Positions 5,262 through 11,755 of a stretch of DNA of 42,988 nt are shown here, piece by piece. Below the pieces are notes generated by a model that had not been told where the DNA came from, made no database searches, and was given only the letters and a program-made list of their open reading frames with translations. Within the stretch, counting starts at the first letter, position 1; every line of letters starts with the position of its first letter. Origin of the DNA: Polyangiaceae bacterium (GTDB lineage: Bacteria; Myxococcota_A; Polyangia; Polyangiales; Polyangiaceae); the NCBI GenBank assembly GCA_029261965.1, contig JAJDAH010000348.1, forward strand, positions 1 through 42,988, given 5' to 3'. The position numbers and the translations under genes are program-made.

Positions 5262-7514
5262 TTGGCCATTCGCAGCTATTTCATCGGATTCGTCGTTTCG
5301 TTCGGGCTCGTGGGCTGCGGAGGGGGCGGCGGCGGCGACGATGGCTCGGCCGGTACCGGCGGAATGGGGACCGGCGGATCCGGCGCGTCTTCGGGCGCTG
5401 GCGCCATGGCCGGCGCGGCGGGAGCCGGGACGGGTGGCATGGGGACGGGCGGTATGGGGACGGGCGGGACGGGAACCGGTGGCTCCGCCGGATCCGCGGG
5501 AACCGCCTCGATGGTCGTCGGCCCGAGCGGTGGCATGGTGCAGGCGGATGGCGCTCAGGTCTTCATTCCCGCCGGCGCGCTCAGCGGCGACGTCGAAATC
5601 ACCATCGAGAGAGTAGATCCAAGCACCTTGCCGGACCCGGCCAACAGTCTTGGAGATGCATACGACTTCGGGCCGGATGGGACTCAGTTCAGCGCGCCTG
5701 TCACCATCACGCTCCCGTTGCTCGCCGCGCCGGCGAACGGTCAGACCGCGGTGATGTCTTGGCTCGACTCGAGCTCTCAGTGGGTCGACATCGGAAGTGA
5801 GACGTTCGGGTTTCGGGAGATCAGCGCGCAGATCGATCACTTCACGCCGTTCAACCCCCGAGCAGCTGCTGGCAATCCCGCGACGACCCGGTTCGAAGGC
5901 GTGCTGGCCAATGGTGCAAGGCAAGCGGGCACCGACGATCAGGGTTGGGGCGAATACAACATCACCGCGAGCATCGCCACCATCGCCGGCAACGTCGGAC
6001 CTGACGGCATCGGTCGATACCGATTCGCCAATTGGGATACCTACGGCGGTCTGGCGGGCGAGTTCGACATCAGCGGCGGGCAATTCTCGTTCGACGTGCT
6101 CATTCCCGGCGGGCAGCAGTTCGTGACGTTGGAAACCGACGAGAGCACGTTCTTCATGCAGATCAATCGCGGCTGCGCGGGCACCTGCCCGATGGGGACG
6201 AGCTTCTTCAACCTCTCCGTAGCGCCGGGCACGCTGGTCAGCGAGGCGACGGGAGTCAGCACGTACACGACAGACGCCGACACGATCACCTTCGCGGGCA
6301 TGACCAACCCCGTGGGCACTGCGGACTACATGATCCTCGACACGCGACCGATCCTCGGCAGCTTCCCGGTGACTCAGATGGGGACGAACGGCGAATTCTC
6401 GGCGGACATCACCCTCAAGCCCGGCCAGAACATCATTTTCGTGGAGAACGAGGGGGCTGTCGTCCACGTGCTCGACATCACGACGACCGGGGGATGTCCC
6501 GGCGCGAATTGCACGTCTCCGACCTGTGCGACCTCCGTGTCGAGCATACCCATGACGGGCACTCCGCAGTTCGTCGCGACCGGCGGCAACCTCGCAGCCG
6601 TTGCTCTTTCGACGGCGAACATCGTTCAGCTCGTGGACATCACGAACCCGGCAGCTCCGGCTCTCGGCGGAACGGTGCCGATCACGTCGGCATCGGGGGC
6701 TCAACAGATGGCGTTCGCGGGCAGCACGATGTTCATCGCGGACGGCGCGAACGGTCTGCTCGTGGTCGACGTGTCGAATCCCGCGGCTCCCACCCAACTC
6801 GGGAGTTGGGTCCCCAACAGCGAAGCGGCTCTGACCTCGCTCGTGACACCCCCGATCGATTCGCGATCCGTCGTCGCCGGTACGGGAGTCGTCTACGTCG
6901 GCAACAGCCGCGAGATCCTATCGGTCATCGACGTGTCGACGCCCTCGGCTCCGACGATGAGCGGGTTCGTGCGTCAGGCGGAAACCGAAAAGATGGATTT
7001 TCTCGCGCTGAATGGGACGACGCTTTTCGGATCGCGCGACATCAACAAGATCTGCGTGCCGGTGGCGTGTCCGCCGTTCTATGGAATGAGCGCGGTCGAC
7101 GTTTCGAACCCGGCTAGCCCGACGTTCTCTAGCGAGATCGCGACTCGCGCTGGTGCCGCCCGGAGCTTCGTGCTCAAGGGCACCCACGCGCTCATGACTT
7201 CCGGCGCCGCTAACGTCGAAGTCGTCGACGTCGGTACGCCGGGCGCGCTCAGTGTTGCGACGACGTTCGGATTTCCGACGAGCCCGGCGAGGGCGGTGGC
7301 TCTGTCGGGGGACCGCCTCTTCGTCACTGCCGGGACCGCGGCCGCCAACCTCACGGTCGTCGACGCGACGGATCCGACGTCGATGACCGTGACCCACGAG
7401 AACCCACTCGCGTTGCCGAGTGAGCTCCCGCGGACTCTCGCGATCTCCGGCACCCACGCTTTGGTGGGCCGAAACAGCTCGGTGGCGGTGCTCGATATCT
7501 CGGGCTGCCTCTGA
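5262..7514 (+). CDS. LVIVD-repeat surface lipoprotein
   Basis: The 750-aa product has a lipoprotein signal with lipobox LVGC (Cys 19), then a Gly-rich linker to about residue 80 made of GTGGM-type units from a DNA tandem repeat. Residues about 85-150 resemble a ZU5-like beta domain (PSGG.. IPAGAL). A middle region to about 430 is unassigned. The C-terminal 300 residues hold about seven LVIVD-type repeats (for example LVVDVSNPAAPTQLG and LSVIDVSTPSAP), which form a beta-propeller in known members. A surface binding role is inferred. The start is TTG 5262, set by a perfect AGGAGG at 5251-5256, five bases upstream. It converges with the sigma factor gene, with 16 bases between stops. Confidence 0.93.
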   Translation: MAIRSYFIGFVVSFGLVGCGGGGGGDDGSAGTGGMGTGGSGASSGAGAMAGAAGAGTGGMGTGGMGTGGTGTGGSAGSAGTASMVVGPSGGMVQADGAQVFIPAGALSGDVEITIERVDPSTLPDPANSLGDAYDFGPDGTQFSAPVTITLPLLAAPANGQTAVMSWLDSSSQWVDIGSETFGFREISAQIDHFTPFNPRAAAGNPATTRFEGVLANGARQAGTDDQGWGEYNITASIATIAGNVGPDGIGRYRFANWDTYGGLAGEFDISGGQFSFDVLIPGGQQFVTLETDESTFFMQINRGCAGTCPMGTSFFNLSVAPGTLVSEATGVSTYTTDADTITFAGMTNPVGTADYMILDTRPILGSFPVTQMGTNGEFSADITLKPGQNIIFVENEGAVVHVLDITTTGGCPGANCTSPTCATSVSSIPMTGTPQFVATGGNLAAVALSTANIVQLVDITNPAAPALGGTVPITSASGAQQMAFAGSTMFIADGANGLLVVDVSNPAAPTQLGSWVPNSEAALTSLVTPPIDSRSVVAGTGVVYVGNSREILSVIDVSTPSAPTMSGFVRQAETEKMDFLALNGTTLFGSRDINKICVPVACPPFYGMSAVDVSNPASPTFSSEIATRAGAARSFVLKGTHALMTSGAANVEVVDVGTPGALSVATTFGFPTSPARAVALSGDRLFVTAGTAAANLTVVDATDPTSMTVTHENPLALPSELPRTLAISGTHALVGRNSSVAVLDISGCL
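5426..5485. repeat. 15-bp Gly-rich tandem repeat within the LVIVD gene
   Basis: Imperfect 15-mers of the type GGGACGGGCGGTATG follow one another and encode the Gly-Thr-Gly-Gly-Met linker units next to the lipobox. The array keeps the reading frame. Confidence 0.7.
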
Positions 7515-7530
7515 CCTCGGCGACTCGCCG

Positions 7531-8139
7531 CTAGGCCTCGGCGGTCTGTCGAGTGCCGACAGCCCAGCGTTCGAGATTGTCGAGGGTCGATTTGAGTAGC
7601 TCCCCGGAGCTCGTCAGCTCTTCCATTTTGGCTCGGAGCGCGTCCTTCGCGCGGCGTAGCCGACTTCGGACCGTGCCATGCGGAATATCGAGCACCTCGG
7701 CCACCTCTCGGCTCTTGAACCCCTCCCAGTAGTGGAGCTCGATCGCGAGCTGGAGATCGAGTGGGATCGCGCGCAGCGCCTCGAGCAACAGCCGGTCCTC
7801 GTTCTTGGCACCGACCAGCGTGCTTGGAGACGGACCGAGGTCCCGGAGCGAGGACGCGCCGACATCGAGGTCCTCTTTCTTGCTGCGCTTGCGCCAGTAG
7901 CCGTAGAGCTCATTTCGCGCGACCGTGAAGAGATAGGTGCGGAAGCTCGACTGCTTTCGGAAATTGTCCTTACTCTCTACGCACGCGAGGAATGTTCGTT
8001 GGACCAAGTCCGCAACGTCTCGCTCGGCCTTGTTGGCGAAGAATCGATAGATGCTCTCCGAGTGCCGTTGAAAGAGCTGGTTGCCAGCTTCCATGTCGCC
8101 ATCCCGCCACGCATCGAGCAATTCGACGTCCAAAGCCAT
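7531..8139 (-). CDS. ECF-type RNA polymerase sigma factor
   Basis: The 202-aa product has the two-domain plan of an extracytoplasmic-function sigma factor. Region 2 covers about residues 10-85 (RDVADLVQRTFLACVE, then FRTYLFTVARNELYGYWRKR). A linker follows, and region 4 lies at about 115-170 with the helix-turn-helix FKSREVAEVLDIPHGTVRSR. It would direct RNA polymerase to a specific promoter set. About 25 extra residues follow region 4. No anti-sigma gene is adjacent. Instead the gene diverges from a Ser/Thr kinase-ATPase, and the two start codons share the bases CATG at 8137-8140. Control by phosphorylation is a possibility only. GTG 8160 is an alternative start. No clear ribosome-binding site is visible for either start. 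Confidence 0.95.
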   Translation of the reverse strand: MALDVELLDAWRDGDMEAGNQLFQRHSESIYRFFANKAERDVADLVQRTFLACVESKDNFRKQSSFRTYLFTVARNELYGYWRKRSKKEDLDVGASSLRDLGPSPSTLVGAKNEDRLLLEALRAIPLDLQLAIELHYWEGFKSREVAEVLDIPHGTVRSRLRRAKDALRAKMEELTSSGELLKSTLDNLERWAVGTRQTAEA

Positions 8140-11100
8140 GTCAGCCCGGAACGATAGCACCGCGGAGCGTTACCGGGTTCTCGGCGAGCTCGGCACGGGC
8201 GGAATGGGGAGCGTGCGGCTGGTTTTCGACGCTGTGCGCGAAGAGAAGGTTGCCGAGAAGCGCATGCGTTTCGCGCAGCCGGACGCCATCGTCGCGTTCA
8301 AGCACGAGTTCCGGGTCGTCGAGCGACTGCTCCACCCGAACTTGGTGAGGCTCTACGAGCTCGGCGAGGACGACGAGGGACTCTTCTTCACGATGGAGGC
8401 GATCGAGGGAGAGGATCTGGAAGCGCGATGCCGCCGCTCGGGGGCACTCGACTTGGCCGAGCTCGCGCATGCGTTGCCACAGGTAGTCGAGGCGCTTTCC
8501 TACCTGCATGCGAGTGCCGTCGTTCATCGAGATCTCAAGCCCAGCAACGTTCTCGTGAGTGACGAGGGGACCGTCAAGCTGCTCGACTTCGGTTTGACGG
8601 CGGATCTTCACGTGTCCGACGCCGACCGACCCGTCGGCGGGACTCCTGGGTATGTGCCTCCGGAGCAAATCCGTGGTGAGCCGCCAATGGCGTCGGCCGA
8701 TCTCTACGCGCTCGGAGCGACACTTTTTCGAGTCGTCACCGGTCGAGACGTTTTTCTCGGTACGCCCCAAGAGATCGTCGCGCAATCGCTCGATGCTGCG
8801 CCTCCGAACGTGGCGACGCTGGTTCCTGATCTCCCGATGGGGGTCGCGGTAGCGATCACGCGCTTGCTTCGCAGAGATCCGACGGCGCGCCCGACTCTCG
8901 ACGAGCTTCCGGAACTCTTGCTCGCACCTCTCGGTGCGCGGAGACCACGCTTGCAGACGGCGGCTCCGCGGTCGGTCGAGATTGTGGGTCGGCACTCGGA
9001 ACGAAAACAGCTGCTCGAGGCGGTCGACAACGACACGCTGGCTGGTCCGGTGACTCTAGTTGGCCCTTCGGGATCCGGGAAGTCGACGCTCGCGGCCTGG
9101 CTAGGCACGGAGCTCGAGCGTCGGGGCGGGGTCCTCTTGCGCGGACGGGGCCGCCCGACCGAACGTGTGCCTTTCAACGCCGTCGACGGCATCGTGGATG
9201 ATCTCGCGCTCATTTTGGGGCGTCGTCGGGAGCTCGCGGACTCGACCCGGGATTTGGCACGCGTCGCCTCTGCCGCTTTTCCGGCGCTCGCGGCTGCCGG
9301 CCAACGCGATGTCGTCATGGAGCGAGTGCTCGCGCTCGTCGAGCAGCGGATGTTCGGCAGTGCCGCGCACACGAGTCACGCCGGATCGCGGCGAGCACAG
9401 TTCGACGCACTCGTGCGGCTGATCGCCGACGCGGGTGGGGGCGTAGCGCGTGTCGTCGTTTTGGTGGACGATCTTCAATGGGCTGACGAGGACTCCGTGT
9501 CGCTCTTGGCACATCTGGAGAGCGCTTGGCCGGACAACGTCGTGCTCGTGCTTTCGATTCGAGACGATGTGGCCGACAGCCCAGGCGCGCGTTGGCTAGC
9601 GGAGTCCCGTGGGGCGCGGCGCTTCGAGCTGCCGGCCCTGGCCGCCGACGAGATCCGGCAGATCGTCTTGCGGTCTGCGCGCTGCACGAGTCCGGATCCG
9701 GCCCTCGTCGAAAAAGCCGTCGTTTCGTGTGACGGGCGGCCGTTTCTTGCCGAAATAGCAGGTCGCACCCTCGACCGAGGTTCCTCTGTCGAGCGCGAGC
9801 AAACTCTAGCGTCGCTTGTCGAGGCTACTGGCTCGACCGGTCGTCGGCTGATGAGTTTGCTCGTTGCCTCCGATGATTGGGCAGGAGTCGGCGAGCTGGC
9901 GGCGCTCGCCGGCCTCACGGTCGGCGAAACCGACAACGTGATTGCCGAGCTCGAGAACGACGGGCTCGTTCGCCGCGATGGCAGGCAGGGCGCGTCGAGT
10001 ACCGTCGATCTCTATCACCACTCGATCCGCCGGGCCGCGCTCGAGGTGCTCGCTCGGGCCGAGCTCGAAACCGCTCACGCCTCCTTCGCCGACGCTCTGC
10101 TCGACGACCATGAGGCTCCGGCTCACCGGTTGGTCCGACACCTGCTCGGCGCTGGTCGCGAGGAGCTCGCGCGGACGCACGCCCGGACCGCCGCGCGTCT
10201 GGCCGAAGGGCGGCGCGCCTACGGGCTCGCTGCCGACATGTACGCCGTCGTGCTCGATGGGGTGTGCCGCGACCGGCCCGAGCTGCTCGAGTCCCGAGCA
10301 CTGGTTCTCGAGAGCGCTGGTCGGTACGAAGAGGCTGCGGTGGTTTGGAGGGATCTGGCTGATTGGGGACGCGCGGCTGATGGAAAGCAAGCAGCGCAAC
10401 GCGTGCTCGACGCGCGTCAGCACGAAGCGATTGCCCTCTTGGCGGCGCACCGAGTGACCGAGGGTTGGCGACGTCTCGACGAAGCGCTCGTTGCCGGGGG
10501 TGATCGCCCAACGGGATCGAGCGGGGTGGGCGGTCTCGCCGCCGGAGCTCGGTTTCTCTTGGGTCCTCGGCCATGGCGCTCGAGACGCGCCCGTCGCCCT
10601 TCGCTCGATCTCGACACTCAGAGGCGGGCACGCCGAGACGTGCGGCTCGGCATGGTGGTGAGCAACTACGATCCGCTCGCCGGGATCCGGATCCTGCAGC
10701 GCGCCCGCCGCGGTTTCGCGGACGCCGGCGCACCCGAGGAGGCGGCGTGGTGCGATTTCATCTTCGCCCACTTCGCTCTTTACCGAGACCCGAAGCCAGG
10801 TCGCGTTCGACTCGCCGAACGCTATAGAGCCTCCGCGGAGACCATCCTGACGCAGAACCAGATCGATACGCCGGCCTTGCGCGCGCTGCCGCCGTTTCTC
10901 GATGGCCTCGCGGCCTTCCGCAATGCCCAGTGGACTCTAGCCAGGCAACAAATCGACGCAGCGGCTGAGCTCATGGAGAAAGCTGGCCACGAAGGCAGCT
11001 TCGAGCACTTGGTGGTGCTGTCGTATCGCTCGCAGCTCGATTTTTCCTTGCAAGACGTCGCGGCTCTCGACGCGGACTTGAGTCGGTGTCGGAGACTCGC

Positions 11101-11755
11101 GGCCGACTGTGGGGACACGGCGCTCCAGGGACGCTTCGTCTTGCAGACTGGCGCATTGCAGTATTTGCGTGGCGAGCTCGAAGAGTGCGGCGACACGATT
11201 CAGGGACTGATCGATACCTATTCTGGCGAGAGGCCGATGATTCAGTGGGCGGCGGCGCGCCTCTACATCCAATTTTTTAGAACACACACTGCCGACCCCA
11301 TCGCTGCGCGCCGAGGCTACGCGGAAGCCATGGGCTGGGCGCGACGATTCAAGATTCTCAATACGATCTGGGCGAACCTGCACGCGACCTTTGGCGCCAT
11401 CATCGAAGCCAACGCGCTCCGTGTTGGCGATCCGGCCGCCTCGGTTCGACAAGTGAAGCGTTTGGCGGACTTTGCAGAAGCAACGATCCCGCTCATGGCG
11501 GGCGGCTCGCATCGAGCTCGCGCCTACGCCGCGGATTCGGTCGATCGTCCCGCCGAGGCCATCGAACACTTGCGCCGCGCTGAGAGTATTTCGGGTCGGC
11601 ATGGCCGAGGCATCGACGTCGCCATCGCCCGCCATCAGTTGGGTATGCGACTCGGTGGCGACGAAGGCGCCGCCCTCGAAGCCGCCGCTCGTGAAAGCGT
11701 CCAGGCGAGTGGCTCGTCGCTCGTCATTCTGGACGAGGACGTTGGCCTGCGCTGA
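8138..11755 (+). CDS. Ser/Thr protein kinase fused to an AAA-type ATPase and TPR-like region
   Basis: The 1205-aa product opens with a Hanks-type kinase domain (about residues 10-275): glycine loop GELGTGGMGSV, VAEK lysine, HRDLKPSN catalytic loop, DFG, and GTPGYVPPE, where the usual APE is PPE. All catalytic residues are present. An ATPase module follows (about 295-520) with Walker A GPSGSGKS and Walker B VVVLVDDLQWAD. The remaining 600-plus residues are Ala/Leu/Glu/Arg-rich helical sequence of TPR character. Such fusions occur in myxobacteria and resemble STAND-type signalling ATPases. No membrane segment is seen, so it should be cytosolic. ATG 8138 is chosen because the kinase glycine loop starts 16 residues later; earlier starts lie inside the divergent sigma gene. 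Confidence 0.94.
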   Translation: MSARNDSTAERYRVLGELGTGGMGSVRLVFDAVREEKVAEKRMRFAQPDAIVAFKHEFRVVERLLHPNLVRLYELGEDDEGLFFTMEAIEGEDLEARCRRSGALDLAELAHALPQVVEALSYLHASAVVHRDLKPSNVLVSDEGTVKLLDFGLTADLHVSDADRPVGGTPGYVPPEQIRGEPPMASADLYALGATLFRVVTGRDVFLGTPQEIVAQSLDAAPPNVATLVPDLPMGVAVAITRLLRRDPTARPTLDELPELLLAPLGARRPRLQTAAPRSVEIVGRHSERKQLLEAVDNDTLAGPVTLVGPSGSGKSTLAAWLGTELERRGGVLLRGRGRPTERVPFNAVDGIVDDLALILGRRRELADSTRDLARVASAAFPALAAAGQRDVVMERVLALVEQRMFGSAAHTSHAGSRRAQFDALVRLIADAGGGVARVVVLVDDLQWADEDSVSLLAHLESAWPDNVVLVLSIRDDVADSPGARWLAESRGARRFELPALAADEIRQIVLRSARCTSPDPALVEKAVVSCDGRPFLAEIAGRTLDRGSSVEREQTLASLVEATGSTGRRLMSLLVASDDWAGVGELAALAGLTVGETDNVIAELENDGLVRRDGRQGASSTVDLYHHSIRRAALEVLARAELETAHASFADALLDDHEAPAHRLVRHLLGAGREELARTHARTAARLAEGRRAYGLAADMYAVVLDGVCRDRPELLESRALVLESAGRYEEAAVVWRDLADWGRAADGKQAAQRVLDARQHEAIALLAAHRVTEGWRRLDEALVAGGDRPTGSSGVGGLAAGARFLLGPRPWRSRRARRPSLDLDTQRRARRDVRLGMVVSNYDPLAGIRILQRARRGFADAGAPEEAAWCDFIFAHFALYRDPKPGRVRLAERYRASAETILTQNQIDTPALRALPPFLDGLAAFRNAQWTLARQQIDAAAELMEKAGHEGSFEHLVVLSYRSQLDFSLQDVAALDADLSRCRRLAADCGDTALQGRFVLQTGALQYLRGELEECGDTIQGLIDTYSGERPMIQWAAARLYIQFFRTHTADPIAARRGYAEAMGWARRFKILNTIWANLHATFGAIIEANALRVGDPAASVRQVKRLADFAEATIPLMAGGSHRARAYAADSVDRPAEAIEHLRRAESISGRHGRGIDVAIARHQLGMRLGGDEGAALEAAARESVQASGSSLVILDEDVGLR

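Follow-up and report, generated by a model that had tools for sequence, protein, structure and literature searches.

A head-to-head ECF sigma factor and Ser/Thr kinase gene pair with both start codons in one CATG: a probable sigma promoter in the first kinase codons

The gene pair and its start codons

The window analyzed here is a whole stretch of 42,988 nucleotides (contig JAJDAH010000348.1, assembly GCA_029261965.1) from a Polyangiaceae bacterium, whose genome comprises 9.59 Mb in 480 contigs. On its reverse strand, positions 7531 to 8139 encode an ECF-type sigma factor of 202 amino acids with ATG 8139 as the favored start. The protein consists of sigma2 and sigma4 domains only (Pfam Sigma70_r2 and Sigma70_r4_2) and has Pfam and NCBIfam sigma70-ECF matches over its 202 residues, i.e., it is an ECF (group 4 sigma70) factor. 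On the forward strand, a Hanks-type Ser/Thr kinase gene extends from 8138 to 11755, encoding 1205 amino acids if it starts at ATG 8138 and more if it starts upstream. The kinase domain (Pfam Pkinase, residues 12-257), in which the HRD and DFG motifs are legible in translation, is followed by an AAA_16 domain (residues 282-460) and a long C-terminal part. The most hydrophobic 19-residue stretch of the kinase (1.73, at residue 425) lies inside the AAA domain, and therefore the protein has no clear membrane segment as judged from hydrophobicity.

The first-pass annotation had reported that the start codons of a sigma factor gene and a divergent kinase gene share one palindrome. This is confirmed, and both identities are borne out by Pfam. 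Read directly, the CATG at 8137-8140 contains the kinase ATG (8138-8140, forward, opening a frame of 1205 codons) and the sigma ATG (8139-8137, reverse, opening a frame of 202 codons), giving a gene overlap of 2 bp. However, frame length by itself proves little about such an overlap in GC-rich DNA. In a scan of all CATG sites, frames of at least 200 codons opened in both directions at 3 of the window's 141 sites; for 104 related loci, the count was 130 of 3092. As such sites are not rare, the case for the overlap has to be made by homology.

Matches to the sigma factor were found in 77 of the 317 genomes searched within the window's class (E <= 1e-28). In this search, up to 10 candidates were scored for each genome, and 59 places were taken from its list; the 105 family loci analyzed are a lower bound, and more loci exist. 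Left out of the counts were L035 (judged to be the same place as L124), L097-L122 (short-flank copies of searched places) and L182 (a 100-base placeholder). Loci L001-L034 and L038-L053, which have short flanks, were used only for the sigma2.2 controls and for the short-flank counts of kinase linkage.

In 55 of the 105 family loci, a start codon stands where M1 aligns, more often than at any other position counted. The window has an ATG there, whereas two loci lack any start codon close to M1. Because of this family position and of the promoter predicted below, ATG 8139 is favored and is the likely sigma start. The window also offers GTG 8160 upstream of it and, downstream, TTG 8133 (codon 3), TTG 8121 (codon 7) and the ATG at codon 16. 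The GTG (8158-8160, reverse strand) was judged an unlikely start, as its TG is also the TG of the predicted extended -10 element. On the kinase side, codons 2-12 contain no ATG, GTG or TTG, and residue 12 is the first one covered by the match to the kinase domain. Therefore, the kinase start is ATG 8138 or one of two in-frame codons that the frame scan places within the sigma gene (8081-8095, forward strand), namely ATG 8093 and TTG 8081. The in-frame stop upstream of them ends at 8071.

If the sigma factor started at one of the downstream codons and the kinase at 8138, the genes would lie at least 4 bases apart and would not overlap. The TTG codons at sigma codons 3 and 7 provide for such an arrangement, in which one assigned start is wrong and the genes merely abut, and in one survey every divergent overlap exceeding 60 bp, 75 in all, was ascribed to a mispredicted start (PMC2478687). 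However, the overlap here is 2 bp, unlike the long overlaps described in that survey, and the kinase offers no start from 8138 on to its domain. On the sigma side, start codons occur at position 3 in 2 and at position 7 in 15 of the 105 loci, compared with 55 at position 1, and the start-type TTG codons at position 7 would be Leu codons of the kind expected from conservation. We therefore consider a wrong start improbable, and the 2-bp overlap appears well supported, even if it is not strictly forced.

A predicted sigma promoter within the kinase gene

To compare promoters, the upstream regions of the family were aligned by start codon, taking the start nearest to M1 regardless of promoters. 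The set comprised 99 regions, i.e., the 105 loci minus two that were too short and four near-duplicates (at least 70% identity over 150 nt). A TAnnnT hexamer ending 5-14 nt before the sigma start was found in 66 of the 99 regions, compared with a mean of 2.7 and a maximum of 6 in 30 shuffles; the other 33 have no TAnnnT at this distance. The modal gap between hexamer and start is 6 nt (17 sites), and the expected transcript start therefore coincides with the start codon. A TG stands one base before the hexamer in 39 of these 66 regions, and also in the window, as in an extended -10 element. Across the family, a TAnnnT at this position looks like the signature of a leaderless mRNA.

In the window, the predicted extended -10 element of the sigma gene is TGCTATCGT (8159-8151, reverse strand), which carries the family hexamer as TATCGT, 11 nt before ATG 8139. 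This hexamer is the sole TAnnnT within 261 nt upstream of the sigma gene. The Shine-Dalgarno energy at ATG 8139 is -2.5 kcal/mol, whereas random 20-mers average -3.3 kcal/mol, so that a Shine-Dalgarno signal is absent. Leaderless genes with a TANNNT signal approximately 10-12 nt before the start were predicted in an earlier survey, which detected them in 8 of the 33 delta-proteobacterial genomes it covered (PMC3160421). The window's sigma gene resembles the genes described there in the signal, in its position and in the missing Shine-Dalgarno sequence. Unlike them, it has its signal within a divergent neighbor's coding sequence, in kinase codons 5-8 and ahead of the kinase domain.

The sigma promoter is thus probably located inside the kinase gene. 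The earlier proposal was that each promoter lies inside the other gene or that both mRNAs carry antisense leaders, and its first part appears to hold for the sigma gene. The second part is not supported, since the spacing of the -10 element places the predicted sigma transcript start approximately 0-5 nt before ATG 8139. As the gap of 11 nt in the window exceeds the modal 6 nt, the mRNA more likely has a leader of a few bases than no leader. A consensus scan of positions 7900-8400 detected no sigma70 promoter with a recognizable -35 element. A two-block motif for ECF autoregulation upstream of the sigma genes was also sought and discarded, as the top dyad occurred in 19 of 101 regions and in 15 to 20 regions in five shuffles.

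For the kinase gene, the forward strand contains no TAnnnT from 7977 to 8138, and none stands 5-14 nt before the starts 8138, 8093 or 8081, i.e., these starts do not have the leaderless signal. The Shine-Dalgarno energies are -0.3 kcal/mol at 8138, -4.3 at 8093 and -3.2 at 8081 (random 20-mer mean -3.3), and all three fall short of the strongest 25% of random 20-mers (-5.0 kcal/mol). Since there is neither a -10 motif nearby nor a good Shine-Dalgarno sequence, an antisense leader, as had been suggested, is possible for the kinase mRNA. For the 89 kinase genes of the loci, up to six candidate starts each were examined, and in 33 genes a TAnnnT precedes one of these starts by 5-14 nt. Control positions gave 1-5 of 89, but they lie inside genes, where base composition differs from that of upstream regions. 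Such a signal is therefore common across the loci, while the window's kinase gene has none.

One way to account for this is that the kinase has no usual -10 element nearby and is read by forward transcription passing through the antisense strand of the sigma gene, for instance from near 7971 or from the forward-strand upstream gene that ends at 7514. Position 7971 carries the single forward-strand TAnnnT from 7300 to 8170, and the lack here of the start-proximal motif that 33 of the 89 kinase genes have, well above the controls, also speaks for this origin. However, 56 of the 89 kinase genes likewise have no motif, and other promoter types may serve them. We regard transcription through the sigma gene as a tentative possibility, which would be compatible with the explanation preferred below. 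Far less probable is a single symmetrical promoter for both genes. Bidirectional promoters of this kind are reported to occur commonly among prokaryotes (PMC12825309; PMC10268837), but the forward strand has no TAnnnT in the 7977 to 8138 interval, and a common -10 element at 8151-8156 would be located downstream of the kinase start. Overlapping opposed -10 elements upstream of both genes, which characterize such promoters, are not found here, and this candidate was rejected.

Kinase linkage and the sigma2.2 region

Linkage to a kinase gene recurs in this sigma family, with varying orientation. Of 58 family loci with flanks of approximately 1.5 kb, 31 contain a kinase domain, whereas among 18 loci of other ECF factors only one does (Fisher p 0.0002, a rough value because related sequences are not independent). 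The family also differs from other ECF factors in the sigma2.2 region. Position 52, the Glu of the QE in the DxxDxxQE motif, is acidic in only 5 of the 105 family loci, compared with 12 of 17 control ECFs (p 2e-9, rough for the same reason). The 17 control rows derive from 18 loci, as tblastn at 1e-3 gave no match for L024. The acid is replaced by Arg in 60, Gln in 25 and Lys in 5 of the 105 loci. A Thr follows at position 53 in 95 of the 105 loci, and this Thr is also found in 9 of the 17 controls. Position 48 is acidic in all 105 family loci and position 45 in 63 of them. The window's sigma factor keeps both D45 and D48 and has R52-T53, giving QRT.

In the ECF43 group, a kinase phosphorylates a Thr in a sigma2.2 region from which the DxxDxxQE acids are lost, according to the descriptions in PMC13147305 and PMC8999054. 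As in EcfP/PknT of Vibrio parahaemolyticus and EcfK/PknS of Xanthomonas citri, the window's ECF sigma factor is linked to a Hanks-type Ser/Thr kinase gene, which here meets the sigma gene at its start codon. The likeness may extend to sigma2.2: one acid of the DxxDxxQE motif is absent and a Thr stands next to it (QRT in the window, QATE at the motif of EcfK as given in PMC13147305), with the putative equivalence of Thr53 and T51 of EcfK taken from the motif description in that paper. In contrast to ECF43, where uncharged residues typically replace the DxxD acids, D45 and D48 are present in the window. The window's kinase further differs from those of the ECF43 systems in carrying an AAA domain and in having no clear membrane segment by hydrophobicity, and the two genes, unlike ECF43 pairs, overlap head to head. 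Because the acid at position 48 is kept in every family locus and the window retains D45 and D48, we do not file the family under ECF43. For the same reason, the sigma factor may be active without phosphorylation. We read the pair as a kinase and its substrate sigma factor, similar to EcfP/PknT in logic but outside ECF43.

Five other groups, ECF59, ECF61, ECF62, ECF217 and ECF283, are proposed to be kinase-regulated (PMC8999054). Compared by description only, the window's sigma factor resembles them in being kinase-linked and in having kept its acidic motif at least in part, a feature which PMC8999054 ascribes to the groups outside ECF43. The examples in the table of PMC8999054 are from Planctomycetes and Nocardioides, whereas the window comes from another lineage.

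Arrangement across the family and interpretation of the overlap

The nearest kinase domain is divergent in 31 of the 105 loci, tandem downstream of sigma (sigma to kinase) in 17, convergent in 13 and tandem upstream (kinase to sigma) in 11, as found with a kinase profile built from the analyzed loci themselves. Distances were taken to the outermost stretch that matched this profile in a frame, and may be off where stretches merged. No kinase domain was found within 2.5 kb in the other 33 loci, 12 of which have less than 2.5 kb of sequence on one side; in one of the 33, L057, a kinase gene abuts the sigma gene with its domain more than 2.5 kb away. When flanking genes were compared with L057, nothing matched beyond the pair and shadow frames. 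The best relative of the window's kinase among 20 chosen genomes, with 35 candidates scored per genome, is in G020 (41% identity over residues 8-1205), where it stands in tandem with a sigma factor 57% identical to that of the window.

Conservation of the head-to-head overlap had been proposed as a check, and the support it gives is weak. When the kinase start nearest the domain is used, the window alone overlaps among the 31 divergent pairs, the other 30 having gaps of at least 46 nt, and the closest kinase relative in the 20 genomes is in tandem. Nine other pairs (L059, L066, L088, L141, L142, L144, L145, L160 and L164) overlap only if a more distant kinase start is chosen. Two of them, L059 and L160, have the distant kinase-frame ATG in one CATG with the sigma ATG as in the window, and the exact overlap may thus recur. 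Nearer start choices exist in both, namely one in L160 (GTG, 46 nt) and four in L059. A kinase start supported by a -10 element could be assigned in 16 divergent pairs, with gaps of 22 to 1561 nt, and in 12 of the 16 the gap is between 22 and 91 nt. In L059, this start is 22 nt from the sigma gene and not at the CATG. Going by these comparisons, the head-to-head overlap is not a family rule.

These data bear on whether the overlap itself regulates the two genes. From the geometry alone, a mutual expression switch is possible. In such an interlock, RNA polymerase at the sigma promoter would block the kinase start region and kinase transcription would cross the sigma promoter, so that the genes pace or repress each other. 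The location of the sigma -10 element within the kinase coding sequence makes interference physically possible, and the CATG arrangements in L059 and L160 also favor this view. However, it is opposed by the gaps in the other 30 divergent pairs and in the 16 pairs with a -10-supported start, by the position of that start in L059, and by the tandem or convergent orientation of the nearest kinase domain in 41 other loci. We therefore consider an interlock unlikely, and infer that the overlap reflects local compaction or rearrangement and not a conserved regulatory device.

The explanation we prefer, with a probability of roughly 0.6, is that of a partner pair in which an ECF sigma factor is encoded next to a kinase that probably controls it by phosphorylation, with the sigma core promoter in the first kinase codons. 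The linked Hanks-type kinase would phosphorylate the sigma factor, possibly at Thr53. Head-to-head packing would place the sigma core promoter into the first kinase codons, before the kinase domain, and the sigma mRNA would begin close enough to ATG 8139 to carry no antisense leader. The arrangement is a compact form of known kinds. It offers a concrete reason why divergent genes can share start codons, since a core promoter is all that a near-leaderless message requires, and the partner gene's first codons can accommodate one. In addition, a kinase-linked ECF family with a change in sigma2.2 allows a direct test for phosphorylation-activated sigma factors outside ECF43. A bolder version of the partner-pair explanation is that the embedded promoter, crossed by kinase transcription, acts as a cis switch that fires only one partner at a time and thereby sets the ratio of the kinase to its substrate. 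The sigma factor would then belong to a Polyangia-type group, as yet undescribed, of ECF factors that are activated by phosphorylation and have a Glu-to-Arg/Gln change beside a conserved Thr; this version is speculative and seems improbable to us.

Several observations were made beside the pair itself. The kinase gene of L160 (G283:C439) is truncated where its contig ends. In L059 (G131:C431), opposed -10-like hexamers overlap upstream of the sigma ATG, forming a candidate symmetrical promoter. The window's genome contains three more sigma paralogues, L055, L065 and L069 (57, 50 and 49% identical). All three have a kinase domain no more than 2.5 kb away, which is divergent at L055, convergent at L065 and in tandem downstream of sigma at L069. 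As no more than 10 candidates were scored per genome, the true copy number may be higher in family f29 of the class (G274-G302), where 24 of the 29 listed genomes have at least 10 sigma matches.
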